Shown piece after piece: positions 19,182 to 31,916 of a stretch of 35,300 bases of DNA. Under the pieces are notes generated by a model that saw only the letters and a list, made by a program, of their open reading frames with translations, ran no database searches and was not told the DNA's origin. A program made the translations under genes and the position numbers. How positions within the stretch are numbered: position 1 is the stretch's first letter; every line of letters begins with the position of its first letter. Origin of the DNA: Deltaproteobacteria bacterium (GTDB lineage Bacteria; Desulfobacterota; Syntrophia; Syntrophales; UBA8958); contig JAPLJZ010000199.1 in the NCBI GenBank assembly GCA_026388335.1, positions 1-35,300 of the forward strand. The letters are read 5' to 3'.

Positions 19182-19757
19182 ATGAATATTATTTGGGTCA
19201 TTTTGATTGCAGTGAGCATTGTTGCCGCCTTCTGGACGGGCGGTCTTGAAGCGGTTACCAGGGCCATGTTTGACGGGGCCAAGGCAGCGGTTGAAATATC
19301 GCTTTTTCTGCTGGGGATAGTCTCGCTATGGCTTGGCATAACAAAGATTATCGAAGATTCAGGACTGATCTACCGGATTTCCCGTGCTTTCAGGCCTCTA
19401 ATTACCCGGCTCTTTAAAACGGTTCCCCCAGACCACCCCGCAATCACCTCTATTACGCTTAACATGCTTGCCAACTTTTTCGGCCTTGGCAATGCCGCAA
19501 CCCCACTCGGAATCAAGGCCATGCAGGACCTTCAGACACTCAATGAAGACAAGGACTCCCTTACTTTTGAAATGATGCTCTTTATAGTTCTAAATACCGC
19601 AAGCGTCCAGTTGATTCCCTTTACAGTGGTAGGTATCCTTTCAGATTTTGGGTCTGCAAACCCCTCGGCCATTGTTTTTCCCACGATAATCTCCACCGTA
19701 ATCTCTGCTATTATCGCACTTGGCGTGCTGTTGCTTTTCAGGAGGCTTATGAAATGA
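19182..19757 (+). CDS. spmA: Spore maturation protein A-like (nucleoside-recognition/Gate domain)
   Basis: 191 residues with four or five hydrophobic spans. ILIAVSIVAAFWTGGLEAVT at the start and MLANFFGLGNAATPLGIKAM (about 88-107) are strong SpmA signatures; the latter is the Gate-domain motif. In Bacillus the pair affects spore core dehydration; in diderm bacteria without sporulation the same proteins are common membrane proteins of unknown transport role. The stop overlaps spmB (ATGA). The symbol refers to homology and does not imply sporulation. Confidence 0.9.
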   Translation: MNIIWVILIAVSIVAAFWTGGLEAVTRAMFDGAKAAVEISLFLLGIVSLWLGITKIIEDSGLIYRISRAFRPLITRLFKTVPPDHPAITSITLNMLANFFGLGNAATPLGIKAMQDLQTLNEDKDSLTFEMMLFIVLNTASVQLIPFTVVGILSDFGSANPSAIVFPTIISTVISAIIALGVLLLFRRLMK

Positions 19758-20281
19758 AGACCGTTGCTTTTATCTCCCAACTCGCAATTCCTGCGTTTAT
19801 ACTTTTTGCGGTGCTGTACGGCGCCTTTAAAAAAGTGCGCGTCTATGATTCATTCGTGGGAGGTGCAAAGGAAGGACTACAGGTCATTGTTAAAATCTTT
19901 CCCTACCTGCTGGCCATTTTTGTTGCGGTCAAGGCCTTTCAGGCATCAGGGGCGTTTGATCTCATCAGGCAGGCTCTTTCCGGATCTTTCTCGGCTCTTG
20001 GCATTCCGCCTGAGGTTCTGTCTGTGGCAATCATCAAGCCTCTTTCCGGAAGTGCATCAACGGCTATCTTTACCGATATTGTCAAGACCACAGGCCCGGA
20101 CTCGCTTGCAAGCAGGATTTCCGCGGTGATCATCGGAAGTGCGGAAACGACTTTTTTTGTTCTTGCCGTGTATCTTGGCGCCGTGAATATCCGCAGGACA
20201 AAATATCTGGTGCCTGTGTGCCTAATTGCCGACGGCGTGGGAATTCTCATTGCCATTGCAGTTGTAAAATTGATGTTTTAA
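19754..20281 (+). CDS. spmB: Spore maturation protein B-like membrane protein
   Basis: 175 residues, overlapping spmA by 4 bases. It has the Gate-domain features GAKEGLQVIVKIFPYLLAIF (about 37-56), IKPLSGSASTAIF and GSAETTFFVLAVYLGAV (about 132-148). Several predicted membrane spans. SpmA and SpmB probably form one complex. A GGAGAAAGGAG stretch and ychF follow 24 bases downstream, so the three genes may share a transcript. Confidence 0.9.
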   Translation: MKTVAFISQLAIPAFILFAVLYGAFKKVRVYDSFVGGAKEGLQVIVKIFPYLLAIFVAVKAFQASGAFDLIRQALSGSFSALGIPPEVLSVAIIKPLSGSASTAIFTDIVKTTGPDSLASRISAVIIGSAETTFFVLAVYLGAVNIRRTKYLVPVCLIADGVGILIAIAVVKLMF

Positions 20282-20305: not shown

Positions 20306-21400
20306 ATGGGCTTTCGCTGTGGTATTATCGGCCTTCCCAACGTTGGAAAATCAACCATCTTCAACGCCCTTACAGCCGCAGGGGCCGAGGTGGCCAATTA
20401 TCCATTCTGCACCATCGATCCGAATGTCGGGATGGTCGCCGTTCCGGATCCCCGTCTTGACAAAATCGCTGCAATTCTTCACCCCCCGAAAAAGACATAT
20501 ACCACCATGGAATTCCTCGATATTGCCGGTCTTGTTAAAGGAGCGAGCCGGGGTGAGGGACTGGGAAACAAGTTTCTCGGCCATATTCGGGAAGTGGATG
20601 CCGTGGTCCATATTGTCAGGTGCTTTGACAACCCCAATGTTGTCCATGTTGACGGGATGGTCGATCCCGTCCGTGACATTGAGATCATCAATACGGAATT
20701 AATGCTTGCCGACCTGGAAACTCTTGAAAAGCGTCTCGCTGTGATTGATAAGAAGACCAAGGCCGGCGATAAATCCGCGACTCATGACATGGAGTCGATG
20801 CGTATTCTTCAGGACGCCCTGGGAAGAGGGATTCCTTGCCGCAATCTTTCTCTAGAGGAGGAAAAATCGACCGCATTGAAAGATCTTCACTTATTGACTG
20901 CCAAGAAGGTCCTTTATGTGGCCAATGTCAGCGAGGAGGTTCTGAAAGGTGACCAGGGCTATATAAAAGAGGTTAAAGAAATTGCCGAAAAAGAAGGATC
21001 ATCCGTCATTACAATCTGCGGGGATCTCGAAGCGGAAATCACAGAATTGGCGGTGGATGAACGAACAGCTTTCCTTGCGGATCTGGGCCTCCATGAATCG
21101 GGTTTGGAGCAGCTTATCAGGGAAGGCTACAAACTTCTCGGGTTAATTACTTTTTACACCACCGTCGGGCCTGAATTGCGCGCCTGGACAATCCCCAAGG
21201 GAACACGCGCGCCGATGGCAGCGGGCAAGATTCACACCGACATGGAAAGGGGATTTATCAGGGCTGAAATCCTGCATTATGCCGACTTCCTTGCTGTGGA
21301 TAGCATTACCCAGGCCAGGGACAGAGGGTTGATCCGTTCAGAGGGGAAGGACTATGAGCTCAGGGATGGTGATATTGTACTCTTCAGATTTAATGTATAA
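20306..21400 (+). CDS. ychF: Redox-responsive ribosome-binding ATPase YchF
   Basis: 364 residues, the standard length. The P-loop GLPNVGKST (9-17) opens the Obg-like G domain, followed by YPFCTIDPNVG with Cys35, the residue linked to oxidation sensing in E. coli YchF. DIAGLVKGAS is the G3 region. The specificity motif is of the NxxE type (ANVSEE), so ATP rather than GTP is bound. The C-terminal TGS domain (about 275-363) contains GPELRAWTIPKGTRAPMAAG. A strong GGAGAAAGGAG ribosome site precedes it. YchF binds ribosomes and modulates stress translation. Two unusual hairpins lie just after its stop codon. Confidence 0.97.
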   Translation: MGFRCGIIGLPNVGKSTIFNALTAAGAEVANYPFCTIDPNVGMVAVPDPRLDKIAAILHPPKKTYTTMEFLDIAGLVKGASRGEGLGNKFLGHIREVDAVVHIVRCFDNPNVVHVDGMVDPVRDIEIINTELMLADLETLEKRLAVIDKKTKAGDKSATHDMESMRILQDALGRGIPCRNLSLEEEKSTALKDLHLLTAKKVLYVANVSEEVLKGDQGYIKEVKEIAEKEGSSVITICGDLEAEITELAVDERTAFLADLGLHESGLEQLIREGYKLLGLITFYTTVGPELRAWTIPKGTRAPMAAGKIHTDMERGFIRAEILHYADFLAVDSITQARDRGLIRSEGKDYELRDGDIVLFRFNV

Positions 21401-21403
21401 AAA

Positions 21404-21537
21404 AGGCGGATGGAAAAGGAGGGACTTAAACCATCCGCCTGTATATAAACTGAAAGGGGTTATAAAATGCTCCCTCTCAGATCGCCCATTAAGGGGGGTC
21501 GGTGAGTGGAAAGGAGGGACCAAAACCACCCACCGAC
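21404..21537 (+). ncRNA. Tandem hairpins with conserved GGAGGGAC loops (candidate structured RNA)
   Basis: Hairpin 1: arms 21404-21413 and 21431-21440, a perfect 10-bp stem (AGGCGGATGG), 17-base loop. Hairpin 2: arms 21498-21509 and 21526-21537, a 12-bp stem (GTCGGTGAGTGG) with one A-C mismatch, 16-base loop. The outer stems differ, yet both loops contain AAAGGAGGGAC, then two variable bases and AAA. The spacer has TCCCTC (21471-21476), complementary to GAGGGA in either loop. No U-run follows either hairpin, so they are poor terminators. The AAAGGAGG is also complementary to the 3' end of 16S rRNA, and GGA loops are CsrA-like sites. Function unknown. Confidence 0.5.
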
Positions 21538-21564
21538 ATTAAAAAACAACTTTTTACTGCAGGA

Positions 21565-21777
21565 TCACTCAGGTAGAAAGAAGGTCACACTCTTGTCTTC
21601 TATTACCTCTTTGTTCTTTTGATCACCTGTTTTATCCATGGTTAACTTTTGATCAACTTTGCCGCTATCTACAGAAAGAAAAAAATCATACACTTTTTGC
21701 CTGTCAAGCCTGATATCTTTAACGCCTTCTTTCCCACCTGAGTCCTGCCGTGAATGATTTCTCTCCTCCTCGTTCAT
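21565..21777 (-). CDS. Small hydrophilic hypothetical protein
   Basis: 70 residues, rich in Lys, Asp and Glu (MNEEERNHSRQDSGGKEGVK, then the segment DRQKVYDFFLSVDSGKVDQKL). No ribosome site is visible before the ATG, no membrane span and no known family. It is convergent with ychF and lies downstream of the sigma54 activator on the same strand, with the dyad sites of 22049-22083 upstream. It may be real, but the evidence is only an open frame of reasonable composition. Confidence 0.4.
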   Translation of the reverse strand: MNEEERNHSRQDSGGKEGVKDIRLDRQKVYDFFLSVDSGKVDQKLTMDKTGDQKNKEVIEDKSVTFFLPE

Positions 21778-21973
21778 CTATGGAATCTATGTTTCATTTT
21801 TTCATTATTCTATGCAACTTCGATGCCATGATGAGAAATATGAATTCGGAAAATATTTTAAAAAGATAACTAATAGGCTTTAGGATATTTTATAGTCTAA
21901 TATGCCAGGCATATAGGCAGTTCATTCCTAATTTTTACAAGATGATTTTCAGATGGAACTGGAAGCATTAGGG

Positions 21974-22002
21974 GGCAGGCGTTCGATTATCGAACACCTG
22001 CC
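21974..22002. other. GC-rich palindromic hairpin in the intergenic gap
   Basis: Arms 21974-21986 and 21990-22002 (GGCAGG-C-GTTCGA with TCGAAC-A-CCTGCC) pair over 13 bases with one mismatch around a 3-base TTA. The inner 15 bases, GTTCGATTATCGAAC, are a perfect palindrome around the central T. No U-tract follows on either strand. It could terminate the minus-strand operon or bind a regulator. Apart from this and the dyads at 22049-22083 I see nothing in 21778-22094. Confidence 0.4.
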
Positions 22003-22048: not shown

Positions 22049-22083
22049 GTGCATATTTCGCACAGCCTGTGCATTATACGCAC
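22049..22083. promoter_or_regulatory. Two 15-bp dyad sites spaced 20 bp (candidate operator/enhancer)
   Basis: On the minus strand 22069-22083 reads GTGCGTATAATGCAC and 22049-22063 reads GTGCGAAATATGCAC. Both fit GTGCG-N5-TGCAC and share conserved outer half-sites. Their 20-bp spacing places them on the same DNA face. They sit 12 bases past the sigma54 activator stop and upstream of the small gene at 21565-21777. Enhancer proteins usually bind such paired dyads; no -24/-12 promoter was found nearby. Confidence 0.4.
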
Positions 22084-22094
22084 ACAGGACTGCT

Positions 22095-24257
22095 TCAGGA
22101 CAGCTTTTGAGTCAGGTTATCAAACTTCTTCTGTTCTCTAATAAATTTATACCTGGAAATACCTAACTGTTTTGCTGCCTCTGACTTGTTTCCACCTGAT
22201 TTGGTAAGGGCGTTTTTCAATATTTTTGCTTTGACATCTTTGACTATTTTGTCTGTTACTACATCATAATTAATCCCATCCAACGGCAACTGTTGAAGAA
22301 ACGGCTCAATTTTAATCTCAACGCCTTTCTGGTCCAGGGACTTTAACTCGGAGGGCATATTATCAGGGTTTATAACTGTTCCCAAACTCTTTAGAATCAT
22401 GATCCTTTCGATGATATTTTTTAATTCTCTGACGTTTCCCGGCCATGGATAAACCTGAAGGATCGTTTCAGCGTCTCTGCTGAATCCCTTGACACGTTTG
22501 CTGAATTTCTTATTGAATTCCTGGACGAAGTACCGCGCCAGTATAATTATATCGTCTGCCCGTTCCCGCAGGGGAGGAATCAATACCGGAACGACACTGA
22601 TACGATAATACAGGTCTTCGCGGAAAGTTCCCTTGGCCACCATATCGCTGAGATCACGATTAGTTGAGAATACAAAGCGAACGTCGTTGGGAATATTTTC
22701 ATTCCCTCCCAGGCGCCGGATATGTCCGTCCTCAAGCATCCGCAGAAACTTTGCCTGAAGCTGGATCGGCATCTCCCCTATTTCATCAAGTAAAATTGTT
22801 CCCCCGTTGCAATATTCGAGGAGCCCGATTTTTCTTTTTCTGGCATCGGTAAAGGCACCGGCCTCATAGCCAAATAGTTCGCTCTCCAGGAGCGTGGGGG
22901 GTATTGCCGCACAGTTGATGTCCACGAAAGGTTTCAGGCTCCGGTGCGAATGCCGGTGAATGGCCCGGGCAATGAGTTCCTTGCCCGTTCCGCTTTCTCC
23001 CTGGATGAGAATATTTGTATCATGACCCGCCACATCAGCAATGATATGAAAGATATCAATCATTTTTTGTGATTTGCCAAGGATATCGTGGAACCCCATT
23101 ATCTGGTCTTCCCGCTCCTTGAGTTTCTCAACCTCCGTCTTCAAACTTTCCGCTTCGCGGGAGAGCAACGAATGCATGATGGCATTGTCATAAGAAGTAG
23201 CGGCATTTTTGACTAGGACATCAAGAATGTTGATCTGATCAGGGGTATAACCGCCCTTTTGCTTCGCAAGATAGAGGGCGCCGACAAATTTATTCTTGAT
23301 TTGGAAAGGAATGGCAATTTCTGATGGAAATCCCGCAAACATGAGCTGGTTTTTTTCTTCACCAGAAGTCTGCCTAACAACAATCGTATGGCCTTCGATC
23401 GCCTCTTTGATAATGCTCGTGCCGATCTTTTCATCACATTCCTCTTTGCCTTCAATGAAGATATGCTTTCCATCATTAACAAGGCATCGATTTCTTTCAA
23501 TATCCCAAACATAACCCATGACGCGCTCGGCATAGGCAATCTTCAGGGCGCTGTTGAATACAATTTCAAGGATTCGATTATCAAGAGAATAACTCTGATT
23601 GAGCCCCGAAACGGCTTCCTGTAGAATCATCAACTGACGGATCTTCTCGGCATTCGTCTCCAGGAGCCTGGCATTATGAATGATGACGCTAACCTGGTTG
23701 GAAAAGGTAAGAAAAAGATTTATTTCCTCGGCGAAAAAATGCACCTCCTCCTCACGCCAGGCGGCAAGAATGCCGATAACATAATCTCCGATCTTCAGGG
23801 GCGCACAGACGATGGAACCATGACCGATTATTTTTGTAAGCATCTTGTCGGTATCCGTTATCCTTGGATCCGTAGCAGCGTCTCTGATGGTAATCATGTC
23901 TCCGGATCGCGCTACCTTTGTGGCCAGGCATTCATGTTCTTTTATGTCTAATGGCGTTTTAAAAGCCCTTAGGGCTTCTTCCTCACTGTAATTCTTCACT
24001 ACTCTCGCCACCAGGTACTGTTGGGATTCATCAAAAAGACGAATAATGCCCCGGTCAAAACCGATGGCGTCAATCAGTTCATCAAGAATTTTCGCGAGAA
24101 TCTCATCCTGATTGGCCTGAGCAGTCAGCAGGGTACTGATCCTGAAAATGCTTTTCAGGAGTTTGTCCTTGTCGAGGAGAGGACCCGGCACCCAGTCTGA
24201 AAGTTCGATCATCCCGTCGGTTTCGGAAGGAATGGGCATGAATTCTGTCATCGCCAT
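22095..24257 (-). CDS. Sigma54-dependent activator with two GAF domains
   Basis: 720 residues. Residues about 35-200 form a GAF domain, about 205-360 a second GAF-like domain, then a coiled linker (about 362-388). The AAA+ domain (about 390-620) has Walker A GESGTGKE (420-427), the sigma54-contact loop GAFTDA (467-472, where most have GAFTGA), Walker B ILLDEI (488-493) and an arginine-finger region FREDLYYRISVVPV. The C-terminus (about 670-710) is a Fis-type helix-turn-helix (SGGNKSEAAKQLGISRYKFI). There is no receiver domain, so it senses ligands or redox directly. It lies 12 bases after a cNMP-binding gene in an apparent operon, hinting at input from that protein. Targets unknown. Confidence 0.93.
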   Translation of the reverse strand: MAMTEFMPIPSETDGMIELSDWVPGPLLDKDKLLKSIFRISTLLTAQANQDEILAKILDELIDAIGFDRGIIRLFDESQQYLVARVVKNYSEEEALRAFKTPLDIKEHECLATKVARSGDMITIRDAATDPRITDTDKMLTKIIGHGSIVCAPLKIGDYVIGILAAWREEEVHFFAEEINLFLTFSNQVSVIIHNARLLETNAEKIRQLMILQEAVSGLNQSYSLDNRILEIVFNSALKIAYAERVMGYVWDIERNRCLVNDGKHIFIEGKEECDEKIGTSIIKEAIEGHTIVVRQTSGEEKNQLMFAGFPSEIAIPFQIKNKFVGALYLAKQKGGYTPDQINILDVLVKNAATSYDNAIMHSLLSREAESLKTEVEKLKEREDQIMGFHDILGKSQKMIDIFHIIADVAGHDTNILIQGESGTGKELIARAIHRHSHRSLKPFVDINCAAIPPTLLESELFGYEAGAFTDARKRKIGLLEYCNGGTILLDEIGEMPIQLQAKFLRMLEDGHIRRLGGNENIPNDVRFVFSTNRDLSDMVAKGTFREDLYYRISVVPVLIPPLRERADDIIILARYFVQEFNKKFSKRVKGFSRDAETILQVYPWPGNVRELKNIIERIMILKSLGTVINPDNMPSELKSLDQKGVEIKIEPFLQQLPLDGINYDVVTDKIVKDVKAKILKNALTKSGGNKSEAAKQLGISRYKFIREQKKFDNLTQKLS

Positions 24258-24269
24258 AGGCCTTTACGA

Positions 24270-24782
24270 TTATATTTCCTTCAGGATGATACTGAGGGCC
24301 GTGGTCAGTTTTACCGTTTCCTCATCTGATTTCCTCAGGCGGGTACTTACAATTCTTGCCAGATTCAGCAGGATTCTGTATCCTAGAGCGCAATCACCCT
24401 CTGCCAGATTCAGGAAATCATCCTTCCGAATTTCGTAGAGAGTACATTCCGTGACGGCCTTGATTGTCGCTGTCCGCCTCTGGGCTTCGAGAAGGGCAAT
24501 CTCTCCGAATACTGCATGGTCACTGGCATCGAGCCGGGTAAATACCTTATTATTCGCCGTTTCCTGTTCATCATCGAAATCCCCGAGGATCAGACTCTTC
24601 ACTACCTCGACCGTTCCCTCCATCATGATATACATGGTATCGCCAATATCGCCCTCTTTCATGATGATGGCCCCGGCAGGGAAGGATACACGGCGGGCAA
24701 TACTAATGATTTCCCTGATCTGATCAGGTGAGATGTCCCTGAATATTTCCGGTTCTTTTAATAAAGTCGCTTCATCCTGCAT
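24270..24782 (-). CDS. Cyclic nucleotide-binding domain protein
   Basis: 170 residues from ATG 24780-24782 (AGAGG six bases upstream); a TTG at 24800 is less likely. One CAP_ED domain (about 13-135): FPAGAIIMKEGDIGDTMYIM, and the phosphate-binding cassette FGEIALLEAQRRTATI with the Glu and Arg that contact the cyclic nucleotide. A helical C-terminal tail (about 140-170) has no DNA-binding HTH, so it is not a CRP transcription factor. Twelve bases separate it from the sigma54 activator and 30 from the K+ channel gene. It probably acts as a free cNMP sensor for one of them (inference). Confidence 0.88.
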   Translation of the reverse strand: MQDEATLLKEPEIFRDISPDQIREIISIARRVSFPAGAIIMKEGDIGDTMYIMMEGTVEVVKSLILGDFDDEQETANNKVFTRLDASDHAVFGEIALLEAQRRTATIKAVTECTLYEIRKDDFLNLAEGDCALGYRILLNLARIVSTRLRKSDEETVKLTTALSIILKEI

Positions 24783-24812
24783 GGATACGCCTCTGTACAA
24801 TGTGCGATCGGT

Positions 24813-26000
24813 CTATAATTCAGGCATGGATCTGGAGAGGACAACCGCCAGATCATCCGCCGCAATCATATAATCATCATCGGGATTGATGTTGATCTTG
24901 ACGGCGTCCTTTTCCACGGAAAATTCCTTCTTTGATTCACGGATCTTTTCCCTTATGAAGGTATCAATCATCGACGTATTATCGGAAAGAATATCCTCTA
25001 ATTTGATCGCCTTTTTTTCCTTCATTATGCCGATCAGAATAGTATGATCCTTCTCCCGATAATAGGAAGATAATTCTTTAAACGGCTTGTTAACAAACAT
25101 GCCGGGAATGTGCGTCCGCCAGAGCTTGTTCTTGTCCCCAAGGGATACGATACTGGATATCACCCTGGGTAGTCCCGGGGAATTAATGGCACTGGCCAGT
25201 AAGGAGCCGATATGTTCGCCCCGGACAACAATCTCATCCACATTGGCTCTCTTGAGATGGGGGCGACTTTCTCCATCCAGGAGTTCTGCGATTGTCTTGA
25301 CATGAGGAGCGAGTGACTTTACGGTCAAGGCCGCCAGAGCAGTCCTTTCATCACTGCGCTCGCGGGGATGCCCGCCTGACTGATCCGCCATGATCAGAAC
25401 AAAAGTGGCCCGGGAAACATTGGCCCGGACTAAGACCTCCTCATGTACATAATCACCCCGCAGAAATTTCAGGTTGTAACGGCTGTATTTAGGACGAAGG
25501 GCCTCGATCTCATCCACGGTCAATTCGTTGATCAACACAATGGCCTTCTCCCTCATGGCGCCATAGGTCGTAAGACCCTGAATAACGTCATCCGTATGCT
25601 GGTTCCATCCGCAGATAATTATATGTTCCTTAGCTTTGATGGTCTCCAATCCCCTGCCCTCCTTCATTCTTCTTTCTATAAAGGTCGACGCAATGGTTGC
25701 GGTAAATAGCGACATCAGTCCTACTCCCGTGAAAATGAGAAAGATCCCCACCATTCTCCCACCCGTGGTGACAGGATACTTATCTCCATAACCGACCGTC
25801 CCCATGGTCACAATGGCCCACCAGATACCATCCCAAACGGTGTTGATATTGGAGCCCGACTCGACGTTTTCGAAATAATGAACAGCCAGAGCGCTCATAA
25901 AGAGAATCGCCAGGGTAATCGCCGCTACTTGAACAATGGTTTTTCTATAGATACCGGAGAGGATCTTAATGAATTGCTGAATAGACCTCATCCGCCCCAT
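24813..26000 (-). CDS. Two-helix potassium channel with RCK (TrkA-N/TrkA-C) domains
   Basis: 395 residues. Two membrane helices (about 20-42 and 82-107) flank the pore loop with the K+ selectivity filter TVGYGD (68-73). An RCK/TrkA-N Rossmann region (about 124-245; HIIICGWNQHTDDVI) and a further TrkA-C-like region follow, as in MthK/Kch-like channels gated by Ca2+ or nucleotides. The glycine pattern is IICGWN-x3, not the canonical GxGxxG, so the NAD-type site may be altered. It begins 2 bases after the EF-G stop, and the cNMP-binding gene follows. A membrane-potential or ligand sensor role for the operon is inferred. Confidence 0.93.
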   Translation of the reverse strand: MGRMRSIQQFIKILSGIYRKTIVQVAAITLAILFMSALAVHYFENVESGSNINTVWDGIWWAIVTMGTVGYGDKYPVTTGGRMVGIFLIFTGVGLMSLFTATIASTFIERRMKEGRGLETIKAKEHIIICGWNQHTDDVIQGLTTYGAMREKAIVLINELTVDEIEALRPKYSRYNLKFLRGDYVHEEVLVRANVSRATFVLIMADQSGGHPRERSDERTALAALTVKSLAPHVKTIAELLDGESRPHLKRANVDEIVVRGEHIGSLLASAINSPGLPRVISSIVSLGDKNKLWRTHIPGMFVNKPFKELSSYYREKDHTILIGIMKEKKAIKLEDILSDNTSMIDTFIREKIRESKKEFSVEKDAVKININPDDDYMIAADDLAVVLSRSMPEL

Positions 26001-26002
26001 AG

Positions 26003-28036
26003 TTATGCCTTGTCATAGACGAGAAAATGCATGGAGAAGATTGCCCGCCCCTGGGTTGCCGAGCGAAGATCCGTCGAATAACCGAAGAGGGCTTTGAGAG
26101 GAACCTTCGCCTGGATTTCACTGACGGGTCCCTTTGGGCTTATGGACTGGATCTCCCCGCGCCGGGCATTGATGTCACCGATAACATCTCCCATAAATTC
26201 ACTGGGCGTTATAATATCCACCACCATAATCGGTTCCAGCAATAGTGGGTCCCCCTGGGAACAACCATCCCGAAAGGCAGTGGAAGCGGCAATTTTATAT
26301 CCCAGTGCAGATGATTCTCCATCTTTGAAGGACCCGCCCTTGACAATGACCTCCACATCCACTACGGGATAGCCGGAAAGAACGCCACTCATGATGGCTT
26401 CCTGGACCCCTTCCGCAATGGCCGTATGAAATTCCTCCGGGATCATTCCCGCAACTACGTTCGACACATAAGCGTTTCCCGTTCCCCGTTCCCTGGGTCG
26501 TAATTGTAGTAAGACATGACCAAAATGCCTTCGCTCCCCGAGTTCCCGTTCGAAACGCCCTTCCACCTCCACGGGCGACTGAATGGTCTCCCGATAAACC
26601 ACCCGGGGCTTGCCCACGTTGACATGGGCATTAAATTCTCGCTGCAGACGGTCGATCACTATCTCCAGATGGAGTTCCCCCATTCCGGATAATACAGTTT
26701 GTGCGGTCTCATCATCATATTTCAAGCGCAAGGTAGGATCTTCTTCCATCAGCTTGACGAGCGCGAGAGAGACCCGTTCCTGATCGGCCGGAGTTTTGGC
26801 CTCGATGGCCTGACTGATCACGGATTCATAAAAATCCATGGTTTCCAGGAGAATTGGCTGAGTCTCATCACAGATAGTATCCCCTGTCTTGCCTTCTTTT
26901 AAACCCATAACGGCAATGATATCGCCTGCCTGGGCCTGATCCAGTCTCTCCCGTTTGTTGGCGTGCATCTTCAGAATCCGGGATGCCTTTTCCTTCTTGC
27001 CCTTCGAGACATTGTAGAGATCATCCCCGGCCTTTATCTGTCCCGAATAGATCCGCAGGTAAGACAGCTTCCTGCCCTCATCCTGCATGATCTTGAATAT
27101 AAGAGCGGCGAGGGGCCCTCGGGGATCGCTGGTTCTCTCCTCTTCCAACCTGGTAAGGGGATTTATTCCTTTGATCGGGGGAACATCTTCAGGGGACGGT
27201 AAAAAAGAGATTACCGCATCCAGAACAGGCTGGATGCCTTTGTTTTTCAGGGCAGACCCGCACATCACTGGAACCACCTGCAGGGAAAGGGTGGCCCTCC
27301 GAATCGCTTCGATTAGTTCCTCTGCCGTTATATCTATGCCTCCCAGATACTTTTCGGCAATATTATCGTCCAAATCGGCAATGGTTTCTATCAACTTGTC
27401 TCTGTACTCACGTACTTTAGGCTGCATATCCTGCGGTACATCCGACAGGGAATAAGTAGCCCCCAGCGAGGTATTGTCCCAAGTAATGACCCTGTTCCAG
27501 ATCAAATCAATAGCACCCTGGAACTGATCTTCTTCACCCAGGGGTATCTGAACAGGCAGAGGCGTGGAATTGAATCTTCGGCGCATCATATCGATGGTTC
27601 CAAAGTAATTAGCGCCAACTCTGTCCATTTTATTAATAAAGGCTATTTTGGGAACGCCATATTTATCGGCTTGATGCCAGACCGTCTCCGACTGCGGCTC
27701 GACCCCGCCCACAGCGCAGAAAACCACCACGGCCCCGTCAAGCACCCGCAGGCATCTTTCGACTTCAATTGTAAAATCTACATGGCCAGGGGTGTCAATG
27801 ATGTGAATATCGTAATCTTGCCAATTGCAGGCAGTAACAGCCGAAGTGATCGTGATTCCCCGTTCCTGCTCCTGAGGCATCCAATCCATAACTGCTTCTC
27901 CATCGTGCACCTCGCCCATTTTATGAGACCTGCCGGTATAATATAAAATCCTTTCCGTAACGGTCGTCTTGCCGGCGTCAATATGAGCGACAATGCCGAT
28001 ATTTCTGATTCTGGCCAGCTTGGATTTGGGGGGCAT
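26003..28036 (-). CDS. fusA: Elongation factor G (second copy type)
   Basis: 677 residues, slightly shorter than the usual ~690-700. All G motifs are intact: AHIDAGKTT (G1), RGITITSA (G2), DTPGH (G3) and NKMD (G4), with the EF-G domain IV/V regions behind. It is not next to rpsL/rpsG, the common home of fusA, but between a GerMN membrane protein and a K+ channel gene, so it may be an EF-G paralogue (EF-G2 group) rather than the main translocase. Whether the organism has another copy cannot be seen here. It catalyses tRNA-mRNA translocation or, if a paralogue, ribosome recycling or stress translation. Confidence 0.93.
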
Positions 28037-28047
28037 AACTCTATATC

Positions 28048-28671
28048 CTACTTCTCTTTTGCCGCTTGAACGATCAATTCCTTGTTGGCGCCAAAGGCTT
28101 GCCGGGTATCTATATGTCCCTTAATGGACTCTATTTCTTTACCGGCAACCATAATTTTAACCTTTTTTATGGTGGGTATATTGATCGTCAGGGTATTGGT
28201 CAGGGAGTATATGGTCGCCATCTCGCTGGCGCTGCCGCCGGGATGATTTTTTATGAGATTCTTATTGAAACTTACATAGGCTATCCCGTCGTCGATCTTG
28301 ACATTTGTCACCTCCACCTTCTCTGGGAAGGTATTGACGAAACCCGTCCTCGATCCGTCTAAAAGTACTTTCACTAGCTCCCGAGCCAAGGCGGAAGGCG
28401 TCTCCTCTTTGGAAACATATCTCTTTTCCGGGACAAGGAAACGCTCATTTGCGTCGGAAAAATAAACTGTGACTTCTTGCTTGTCCTTCTTTTTAGCGAC
28501 TTTACCCTGACCGTCTACGGGTGGATAAACATAATCAAACAGGGTCAGAAAGAAAAAAACCAGGAACCCCACCAAGGTAGTAATCACAAGAAAAAGAACC
28601 GACTTTTTCATCTTTCTCTTTTGCTGCTTGGTCTTGACCGTAGCTGTCCTACGCTGCTTCTTTGAGGCCAT
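28048..28671 (-). CDS. GerMN-domain membrane protein
   Basis: 207 residues from ATG 28669-28671 (AAGGGAG six bases upstream). A basic cytoplasmic head (1-23) precedes one hydrophobic anchor (about 24-45, [20 protein letters not shown]). The exported part carries a GerMN domain (about 75-195): [20 protein letters not shown], then [14 protein letters not shown], ending in [20 protein letters not shown]. GerMN domains occur in spore-germination GerM but also widely in cell-wall-associated proteins of non-spore-formers. It starts the apparent minus-strand operon, 11 bases ahead of EF-G. Envelope function is inferred; precise role unknown. Confidence 0.85.
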
Positions 28672-28700
28672 GTAGATCTCCCTTTTCAAAAAGATCAGTG

Positions 28701-28729
28701 AGGGTAGGTCATTTTGCTATTGCTGTCAA
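28701..28729 (-). promoter_or_regulatory. Putative sigma70 promoter of the GerMN/EF-G/channel operon
   Basis: Minus-strand TTGACA (28724-28729) and TACCCT (28701-28706) are separated by 17 bases, 30 bases before the GerMN start. It would drive the whole set down to the sigma54 activator. Confidence 0.55.
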
Positions 28730-28772
28730 GGAAAGATGGATACCTCAGAAGATAGGAAAATGGCCCGGCAAC

Positions 28773-29597
28773 TCAGATATTGATCAATTGCAGGGCCTGC
28801 TTAGCCTTCAGACCGAAATCTGAACCTGGGGCAAGTTTGACGACCATTTCATAGGCCCGTCTCGCCTCCGACATTCTCCTTCGCTTGGAATAGCACTCAC
28901 CCAGCCAAAAATAAGATTCAACAAGATTGGGCACCAACTCCGTTGATTTTTTGAAATGACCAATAGCACCGTCGATGTCTCCTTGCGCATAACTGGCCTT
29001 TCCCATTTCCTTTTCGATCAGGGGAAGAAGCTCAGGTCTGGTAGCCTTTACGGCGGCCTCCTGGTATTTCGTTAATGCCCGCTGGTAGTCGCCTTTGCTT
29101 GCATAAGCCCTACCCATATTGTACAGGGACATCTCGGGCGTCTCATAGAGGATATTGGCCAGAGCGCTGTTAAAGGCAGTTATCGCCTTGTCATACTGCC
29201 CACGATCATAATAAAGAATCCCCAGAAAGTGATAAGCAGTGGAGTAATCAGGCTTGAGCCTGACTGCTGTTTCACATTCCTCAATCGCCTTTTCGTTGTA
29301 CCCCTTTCCGAAATAGGCGACGGCCAGATTATAATGAATCGTGGGGTTTTCCGGCGTATATTTTTCCGCTTCCATGAGTTCCTTGAGGGCTGCGGTGTAA
29401 TCTTCCCCCTCCACATAGGCCTTACCGATATTCAAATGGTTTTCCGCCAGCTCCCTTCGCTTTTGCGACCCGGCACAAGACAAGAGACTCGCAACCATGA
29501 ATAGTACGAGACAAACAGCCGCGCATGCAAACCATGTCCCATGCTTGCCGCGATCATATCCGCATGCCGCTTTACGCTTCTTTGTTGTTATTGCCAT
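28773..29597 (-). CDS. TPR-repeat lipoprotein (PilF/NlpI-like)
   Basis: 274 residues. A basic head, hydrophobic stretch and lipobox ASLLSC (Cys41) make a lipoprotein signal. Six or so tetratricopeptide units fill the mature part; examples are NIGKAYVEGEDYTAALKELM, YNLAVAYFGKGYNEKAIEEC and FLGILYYDRGQYDKAITAFN. The general layout resembles PilF/PilW or NlpI, outer-membrane lipoproteins that assist pilus secretins or peptidoglycan enzymes, but the partner is unknown and no pilus gene is nearby. It overlaps the upstream HD gene by 26 bases, so the two are translationally coupled. Confidence 0.88.
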   Translation of the reverse strand: MAITTKKRKAACGYDRGKHGTWFACAAVCLVLFMVASLLSCAGSQKRRELAENHLNIGKAYVEGEDYTAALKELMEAEKYTPENPTIHYNLAVAYFGKGYNEKAIEECETAVRLKPDYSTAYHFLGILYYDRGQYDKAITAFNSALANILYETPEMSLYNMGRAYASKGDYQRALTKYQEAAVKATRPELLPLIEKEMGKASYAQGDIDGAIGHFKKSTELVPNLVESYFWLGECYSKRRRMSEARRAYEMVVKLAPGSDFGLKAKQALQLINI

Positions 29598-30531: not shown

Positions 30532-30716
30532 GCCTTCCGCGTTTCGGCTAATTTTCTTCAGAATATCGCTTCTTGATTATTCCTGAGATGACACGCAGAT
30601 CGTAACCAATATGCGGGATGAACTCACCTTGCCAGGGATGTGTCTAAGCAACACCCGACAATCTGAGCTTACTCGTGTCAGGTTATATAAATTCTTTACA
30701 AAAGGGAGGTAGTGTT

Positions 30717-31916
30717 ATGGCGTTAGATTTTACATTTACAGATGAGCAAAGGATGCTCGAGGATTCAGTTTACAAATGGGCGATCAATTGGCTAGAACCC
30801 CAGATGGAACACATGTATGAGATCGACGAAATGCCCAAGGATCTCTTCAAGCAGACGGGCGACCTCGGTATCAACGGTATCGTATTCGAGGAAAAATACG
30901 GCGGCGCCGCTTTGGGTTACGTAGAAACCCTGCTGGCATACGAGACCATCGCCCGGGTCAGCAACGCCCTGTCGATGACCGTAGGCGCCAGCCAGTCGCT
31001 GTGCTTCGACAACTTCCGTAGAAACGCCACGGAAGCGCAGCGAGCCTATGTCCTTCCCAAGTCCGTTACCGGGGAATGGATCGGCTGCCTCGGCATCACC
31101 GAACCCAACGCCGGTTCCGATGCCATGAGCATGGCAACCAAGGCGGAAAAGAAGGGCGACAACTACATCATCAACGGCAGCAAGATTTTCATCACCAACG
31201 GTCCCGTGGCAGATTTCATGGTGTTCTACGCCAAGACCGATCCCGCAGCGGGTCCCAAGGGCATCTCGGCCTTCTTCTTCGAAACTGCAGCGCAAAAGAA
31301 GAAGGGCGCCGTCAAATTCGAGAAGATCAAGAAATGGGGTATGAGGACCTCTCCCACCGCCCTAGTCACCTTCGAAGACATGGAACTTCCCGCAGAGAAC
31401 CTCATCGGCGGCCTGAACAAGGGCGTCGCCGTTCTCACCAGCGGTCTGTGCACCGAGAGAATCACCCTGTCCGGCTGTACCCTCGGCGGCCAGAGAACCT
31501 GCCTTGAGCTCTCTCTGAAGTATGCCAAGGAAAGAGTTCAGTTCGGCAAACCCATCGCCTCCTTCCAGACCATCCAGGAGAAATTGGCTAATATGTACTG
31601 CGGTTACAAGGCAGGTAAGTGGCTGGCCTACAGCGCTGCCGCCTACTGTGACACCCTGACGAACAAGTCCGGTGGCAAGGGAACCGACCTTGACCGTATG
31701 GCCGCCGCCTCACTGCTGTTCAACGGCGAGATGGGCACCAAGATCGGCCTCGACGCGATTCAAATCTTTGGTGGTTACGGTTACTGCACCGAATACGCCA
31801 TTTCGAGACATTTCTTGGATCAGAAGCTTTGGGAAATCGGCGCCGGCACCTCGGAAATTCGCCGCATGATCATCGCCCGCGAGCTCATGAGAGACGACTT
31901 CAAGAGTGGTTTATAA
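30717..31916 (+). CDS. Acyl-CoA dehydrogenase
   Basis: 399 residues from ATG 30717 with AAAGGGAGG upstream. The substrate/FAD motifs CLGITEPNAGSD (124-135) and FITNGPVADF are present. The usual C-terminal base site reads WEIGAGTSEIRR, without the Glu of MCAD; instead Glu247 in SGLCTERITLSG corresponds to the base of isovaleryl-CoA dehydrogenase-type enzymes. It oxidises an acyl-CoA at C2-C3, passing electrons to ETF. Codons end strongly in C or G (AAC, ATC, GGC, AAG), more than neighbours, suggesting high expression. It is monocistronic, between its own promoter and terminator. Substrate unknown: short-chain, branched or alicyclic acyl-CoA are all possible. Confidence 0.95.
   Translation: MALDFTFTDEQRMLEDSVYKWAINWLEPQMEHMYEIDEMPKDLFKQTGDLGINGIVFEEKYGGAALGYVETLLAYETIARVSNALSMTVGASQSLCFDNFRRNATEAQRAYVLPKSVTGEWIGCLGITEPNAGSDAMSMATKAEKKGDNYIINGSKIFITNGPVADFMVFYAKTDPAAGPKGISAFFFETAAQKKKGAVKFEKIKKWGMRTSPTALVTFEDMELPAENLIGGLNKGVAVLTSGLCTERITLSGCTLGGQRTCLELSLKYAKERVQFGKPIASFQTIQEKLANMYCGYKAGKWLAYSAAAYCDTLTNKSGGKGTDLDRMAAASLLFNGEMGTKIGLDAIQIFGGYGYCTEYAISRHFLDQKLWEIGAGTSEIRRMIIARELMRDDFKSGL

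Follow-up and report, generated by a model that had tools for sequence, protein, structure and literature searches.

A putative sigma-54-dependent locus in Syntrophales encoding a small protein and an RNA element with anti-Shine-Dalgarno loops

Results

The locus

The window, a 35,300-nt stretch of a Syntrophales contig (JAPLJZ010000199.1), carries a sigma-54 activator gene on the minus strand and, downstream of it, candidate activator sites, a predicted promoter, a small open reading frame (ORF) and three hairpins designated HA, HB and HC. The hairpins abut the convergent gene ychF. In minus-strand order, the features are as follows.

22095 to 24257, minus strand: sigma-54 activator gene, with GAF, Sigma54_activat and Fis-type HTH domains by Pfam
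22068 to 22084, minus strand: first putative activator site, TGTGCGTATAATGCACA, the sole exact TGTGC-N7-GCACA in the window's genome
22048 to 22064, minus strand: second putative activator site, TGTGCGAAATATGCACT, from site scoring and array analysis
21980 to 21996, minus strand: third putative activator site, TGTTCGATAATCGAACG, from array analysis
21813 to 21828, minus strand: predicted sigma-54 promoter, TGGCATCGAAGTTGCA, from the pattern in the window and family counts
21565 to 21777, minus strand: 70-aa ORF with FFLS and FFLPE motifs, from the ORF call, the FF motif in relatives and dN/dS
21498 to 21537, minus strand: hairpin HA, a 12-pair stem (one G-U) with loop UUUUGGUCCCUCCUUU
21493 to 21497, minus strand: C-run CCCCC directly 3′ of HA, seen by eye after HA in most copies
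21450 to 21480, minus strand: hairpin HB, arms CUGAGAGGG and CCCUUUCAG, with two-sided changes in 7/7 pairs
21404 to 21440, minus strand: hairpin HC, a 10-pair stem with loop UUUAAGUCCCUCCUUUU, the predicted terminator stem
21399 to 21404, minus strand: U-tract 3′ of HC, overlapping the ychF stop codon of the opposite strand

The genes at 22095–29597 run in the order TPR, Germane, EF-G-like, K+ channel, cNMP-binding and activator. This order partly recurs upstream of the RNA at other loci, where the EF-G-like gene is found at 24 of 60, the K+ channel gene at 9 and a cNMP-binding gene at 12 (including a weak match at L104 with 25% identity; at most 8 kb searched per locus). The two genes before ychF (19182–20281) presumably encode look-alikes of the spore-maturation proteins SpmA and SpmB.

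Structure and strand of the RNA element

An earlier note on this DNA had described two hairpins with near-identical loops and different outer stems that pair almost perfectly, and these are present at 21404–21440 and 21498–21537, with 21 of 25 bases of the loop plus 3′ arm common to HA and HC. The region 21395–21560 folds more stably than its shuffles on both strands (z-scores of −5.58 on the plus and −6.12 on the minus strand; 0/200 shuffles as good on each). A-C mismatches on the plus strand correspond to G-U pairs on the minus strand, and the stem positions of 62 distinct family hairpins (chosen by the core CCCTCCTT(T)), read on the proposed strand, comprise 690 Watson-Crick pairs, 21 G-U pairs and 3 A-C mismatches. 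Six T's occupy 21404–21399 of the minus strand, the first of them paired within HC, and the minus-strand order of the element is HA, C-run, HB, HC and then the U's. Because A-C mismatches become G-U pairs on the minus strand, a third hairpin lies between the other two, and T's follow the last hairpin, the element is read in the minus-strand direction, as HA-HB-HC. The note was right about the hairpins but wrong in its plus-strand reading, and its remark that neither hairpin has a U-tract holds for the plus strand only, since HC enters six T's on the minus strand.

HC consists of a G+C-rich stem followed by a U-tract and is the predicted intrinsic terminator of a minus-strand RNA; a simple terminator scan missed it because that scan permits loops of 3–8 only. 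The segment TCCCTC, previously regarded as a spacer, turns out to be one arm of HB, all seven pairs of which show two-sided changes. Support for the pairing proposed between this segment and the loops is weak: complements of 5 nt or longer, variable in length, occur in 25 of 35 pattern-caught arms vs. about 20% of shuffled arms.

Distribution and covariation

DNA similarity located the element in 39 of 60 genomes, counting the window's own. A MAFFT alignment of 21 copies yielded a consensus of 26 pairs, 11 of them with two-sided changes, and a covariance model (R1) built from this alignment matched 86 of 155 Syntrophales genomes at E ≤ 0.01 (54 of 92 good-quality genomes; 43 of 53 genera). In a sample of 395 genomes across the phylum, clear R1 matches were confined to 8 genomes, all Syntrophales, and the only matches outside the order were in four marginal genomes (E 0.0024–0.0051), which is chance level at E 0.01 per genome. 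When 51 distinct copies were aligned to R1, two-sided changes appeared in 23 of 26 pairs (10.6 in shuffles) and in 148 cells (34.6 in shuffles), and 96.9% of cells paired (85.2% in shuffles), figures that are favourable to pairing because this alignment is fitted to R1, unlike the 21-copy MAFFT alignment. With partners slid by 1–3 columns, 30.7–54.3% of cells paired and 6–23 cells were changed. Covariation is present in all three hairpins. The two outcomes that would have counted against the note, no homologues and no covariation, were thus not encountered, and there is strong support for its view that selection acts on an RNA structure whose loop is functional.

A pattern scan of genome contigs returned 60 stretches, of which 31 carry Syntroph- names, 28 are named only as Delta-/Proteobacteria or Pseudomonadota, and one is from Flavobacteriales. 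The last (L132), with neither an R1 match nor a matching outer stem, was set aside as a chance match. The hairpin pattern had no matches in viral contigs, where signs of viral spread were sought. A known Rfam family was rejected as the identity of the element, the window having no Rfam match at gathering score; the 13 Rfam matches up to E 10 at 21380–21860 and the two matches up to E 1 in seven relatives all fall far under gathering scores. Among open-licence papers, we found no published description of the element itself.

The same material contains other arrangements. A single-hairpin form, with a sigma-54 promoter ~100 nt upstream and extra conserved sequence before HA, was seen at L032, L034 and L038 (2541–2590), and also at L076, L083, L092 and L129; at L076, L092 and L129 an acyl-CoA dehydrogenase-like gene (matching window positions 30675–31913) lies upstream on the other strand. 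At L022 (1427–1550) and L029 (2483–2612), a tandem pair of HA-like hairpins has the anti-Shine-Dalgarno core in both.

Promoter, activator sites and activator gene

Upstream regions were scanned with a pattern based on the sigma-54 consensus, TGG[CT]A[CT]-N5-[TC]T[GT]C[AT]. Of 61 entries, 56 extend 300 nt or more upstream, and the pattern occurs on the same strand as the element in 38 of these 56, on the other strand in none, and in 0.15% of dinucleotide shuffles. With one mismatch allowed, 51 of 57 elements (window included) have it on their own strand and one has it on the opposite strand, leaving six without a recognisable sigma-54 promoter. The 38 fixed-pattern promoters fall into two groups, 13 near (49–176 nt upstream) and 25 far (269–420 nt), the latter including L102 and L102b, which share one promoter.

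When exact inverted half-sites upstream were counted, TGTGC-N7-GCACA ranked first (18 of 61 regions). With the extended form TGTGCG-N5-CGCACA scored out of 12, the best site reaches 10 or more in 51 of 57 regions, whereas mononucleotide shuffles predict 1.26 such regions. Site pairs recur at spacings of 20, 68–70 and 88–90, and in 39 of 57 regions a three-site array with spacings of 20 and 67–70 scores 26 or more out of a possible 36; among 1140 shuffles the highest sum was 23. The arrangement is that of a sigma-54-dependent small RNA, with a −24/−12 promoter on the same strand and putative activator sites upstream of the promoter.

Of the 50 entries that extend 1.2 kb or more upstream, 39 have a relative of the activator in the same orientation no further than 1.3 kb upstream; 11 shorter entries were left out. 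The 11 entries without a linked activator include L119 and L127, further copies in genome G002, where the activator is encoded elsewhere. Genome G044, a single contig, has the RNA 1.4 Mb away from the activator, and neither activator site nor promoter was seen around the latter. The GAF half of the activator was detected at E ≤ 1e-60 in 76 of 155 Syntrophales genomes, and co-occurrence with the RNA is tight: 75 genomes have both, 11 the RNA only, one the activator only and 68 neither (Fisher p 1e-30, uncorrected for ancestry). Five of the 11 RNA-only genomes belong to one genus (g25), and stretches from two of these lack promoter and sites by the patterns used. From position and co-occurrence, we infer that the G000 activator binds the TGTGCG-N5-CGCACA sites.

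The small protein

In 24 of the 25 far-promoter entries, a frame with the FF motif ends just before or inside the element (the exception is L111, and the frames of L090 and L086 appear to contain frameshifts). Between promoter and element, an FF frame of 50–95 aa is missing from all 13 near-promoter entries; for one of them, L083, the filter returned an FF frame that starts upstream of the promoter. Among six copies from one genus, dN/dS was 0.14–0.37 in 14 of 15 pairs and 1.43 in the remaining pair, which has seven differences, values that on the whole support coding selection on the small ORF. No match was found in Pfam up to E 10 (six representatives) or in NCBIfam up to E 0.1 (five representatives). 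With start codons assumed, a strong Shine-Dalgarno sequence precedes 6 of 38 small ORFs, compared with 19 of 26 ychF genes and one of seven EF-G genes. The protein appears charged, with few hydrophobic residues save one or two FF[LVI][SPTA] motifs, and in L079, L105, L106 and L128 its C-terminus resembles FFLSDYPWDDE.

The loop core and complementary sites

The loop had earlier been given as GGAGGGA. On the strand proposed here, the loops of HA and HC instead carry UCCCUCCUUU, a match to the anti-Shine-Dalgarno tail of 16S rRNA; across the 62 family hairpins, selected on that core, the loop reads CCCUCCUU(U) every time. The suggestion that the loop offers a Shine-Dalgarno sequence to 16S rRNA is thereby reversed, as the loop is the complement of such a sequence and a copy of the 16S tail. 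That comparison rests on one Syntrophales genome (L182), whose 16S tail ends ATCACCTCCTTTCT; the two share CCUCCUUU, equal over 8 nt, and the loop has an extra UC at its 5′ side. The exact tail pattern was matched in one of nine genomes and the 16S model, in pieces, in one of four, with nothing found in the single-contig genome, so that 16S genes seem to be missing or withheld from these sequences. The core is predicted to be mostly unpaired, with a median of 0.79 over 83 cores and values of at least 0.7 in 67. It stays constant in HA and HC while the stems vary. A different terminator hairpin replaces HC in L036, L037 and L040, and the HC loop core is lost in L014 and L019; the HA core is kept in all five. 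The HA loop of L021 departs from the core (CCCTCCTCT).

Sites complementary to the core are common. The pattern AAAGGAGG-N5-11-ATG occurs 137 and 104 times in two genomes, against 14 and 20 for reversed-pattern controls, and the full 10-nt site AAAGGAGGGA occurs 3–18 times per genome in seven genomes (controls 0–3). Among the neighbours of 30 of 62 such places, one gene type, which we take to be a CaiB/BaiF-type CoA transferase, recurs in three of seven genomes and a 97-aa protein in two of seven; shared ancestry may explain this recurrence. Because complementary sites are so common, they yield candidate targets only, and selectivity of the loops would have to come from the extra bases, accessibility or the co-encoded protein, unless the effect is broad.

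Hfq was detected in none of seven Syntrophales genomes by a search that was positive in 5 of 14 known genomes used as a control. CsrA was detected in four of the seven but not in G013, G015 and G022, and the RNA is present in all seven. Since those three genomes have the RNA without detected CsrA, a CsrA decoy, as the note had suggested, is not the shared function; in addition, the HA and HC loops contain no GGA on the presumed transcribed strand.

Discussion

Our preferred reading, which we consider probable, is that a sigma-54 activator switches on a transcript for a small protein and a small RNA whose loops pair with Shine-Dalgarno sequences. Comparative sequence evidence supports the strand and structure of the element, the promoter, the activator sites, the linkage and co-occurrence of the activator, and coding selection on the ORF. 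The element would form the 3′ part of a sigma-54-dependent minus-strand transcript running from ~21800 to ~21399, roughly 400 nt. A dedicated GAF-domain activator, encoded just upstream, would bind the three TGTGCG-N5-CGCACA sites and fire the promoter at 21813–21828. The resulting RNA would encode the 70-aa FF[LVI] protein and end in HA-HB-HC, with HC as terminator. Its 3′ part, as such or after processing, may then act in trans, the exposed UCCCUCCUUU loops pairing with AAAGGAGG(GA)-type Shine-Dalgarno sequences on mRNAs and hindering ribosome binding without Hfq. For a pair of exposed anti-Shine-Dalgarno loops, pairing with ribosome-binding sites would be the simplest function. Covariation, the G-U asymmetry, the U-tract, the strand of the promoter, the site array, the linked activator, the ORF and the unpaired core all count in favour, as do the 8-nt identity of the core with the L182 16S tail and its retention in HA where HC loses it. 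Against it count the abundance of complementary sites, the six of 57 elements without a promoter, the 11 RNA-only genomes and the divergent HA loop of L021.

An unlikely alternative is that the RNA acts as a decoy whose C/U-rich loops titrate a protein, perhaps the co-encoded one, or disturb the ribosome by mimicking the 16S tail. A generic core with a common complement, a protein encoded on the same presumed transcript and the failure to detect Hfq in seven genomes would fit such a role, but the candidate partner protein is only hypothetical, and the 13 near-promoter entries carry the RNA without an ORF between promoter and element, which makes the RNA independent of the protein in cis. Those same entries bear on the proposal, in our estimate quite improbable, that the hairpins merely terminate and stabilise the small-protein mRNA, with loops that owe their conservation to folding or to chance. 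While HC does look like a terminator and 24 of the 25 far-promoter entries place the RNA after the ORF, near-promoter elements keep their hairpins with no ORF to serve, the loop core is constant in both HA and HC as stems change, and HA, which is no terminator, keeps the core where HC has lost it. Scarcely credible is a plus-strand structure in the ychF 3′ region that would sequester CsrA, mimic a Shine-Dalgarno sequence or bind a ligand: the hairpins fold on that strand too, CsrA occurs in four of seven genomes, and ychF is convergent within 600 nt in 26 of the 52 elements with enough sequence, but the other 26 have no adjacent ychF, CsrA is undetected in three of seven genomes, the G-U to A-C asymmetry of 21 to 3 favours the minus strand, and the U-tract, promoter and activator gene are all on that strand. 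Ligand binding in particular is unsupported, and a riboswitch was rejected, the element being 3′-terminal on its presumed transcript and ending in a terminator.

The protein-plus-RNA transcript of our preferred reading resembles the CcsR ('cuckoo') RNAs and CIN1 loci, for example CcaF1-CcsR1-4 of Rhodobacter sphaeroides and SmelA075/SmelA099 of Sinorhizobium (PMC10253847, PMC3927594, PMC8625941). In CcsR RNAs every loop bears CCUCCUCCC and the stems vary (PMC3927594); at the CIN1 locus, an RpoHI/RpoHII promoter drives one transcript that includes both the CcsR RNAs and the message for a 71-aa DUF1127 protein, CcaF1, and that closes with a 3′ terminator (PMC10253847, PMC8625941). Both systems share tandem hairpins with anti-Shine-Dalgarno loops and variable stems (here HA and HC, HB having no motif) and a protein of ~70 aa upstream on one transcript with a 3′ terminator, an arrangement that is predicted from sequence in Syntrophales. 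They differ in the loop (CCUCCUCCC vs. UCCCUCCUUU), in the protein (DUF1127 vs. one with no Pfam match), in the promoter (RpoHI/RpoHII vs. sigma-54 in 51 of 57 elements) and in taxon, CcsR/CIN1 belonging to Alphaproteobacteria, another phylum; the extra hairpin HB without the loop motif is found only here. Because loop, promoter, protein and taxon differ, the Syntrophales element, which resembles the CcsR locus in architecture, is not filed as a member of CcsR/CIN1.

The 6C RNA (B11) of Actinobacteria has two C-rich loops that are considered to pair with G-rich mRNA 5′ regions (PMC10470900). The likeness lies in the two C-rich loops and their presumed G-rich targets, whereas the loop and overall structure are unlike the Syntrophales element; the 6C Rfam model has no gathering-score match in the window and is not among the window matches up to E 10 or those up to E 1 in the seven loci.

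A further parallel is offered by Qrr, GlmY/GlmZ and CrcZ, sigma-54-dependent small RNAs of which several use Hfq. They likewise stand behind a −24/−12 promoter with an enhancer-binding activator; to our knowledge, they have no sequence or structure relation to the Syntrophales element, and the use of Hfq by several of them differs from the situation in Syntrophales, where Hfq was found in 0/7 genomes.

A more ambitious and rather doubtful extension of the preferred reading is that a sigma-54 switch resets translation in syntrophs lacking Hfq. With one activator and essentially one promoter, loops that mimic 16S rRNA would hit many mRNAs, and the FF[LVI] protein would join the RNA on ribosomes or in RNA decay, making a two-part regulator.

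If the preferred reading is correct, the locus would represent what seems to be an independent parallel to the alphaproteobacterial pairing of a small protein with an anti-Shine-Dalgarno RNA, governed by a sigma-54 activator of its own and found in a widespread syntrophic order with Hfq undetected in 7/7 genomes. It raises the question of how selectivity is achieved by an RNA that duplicates the tail of the ribosome itself, and would make post-transcriptional control in syntrophs open to direct test.
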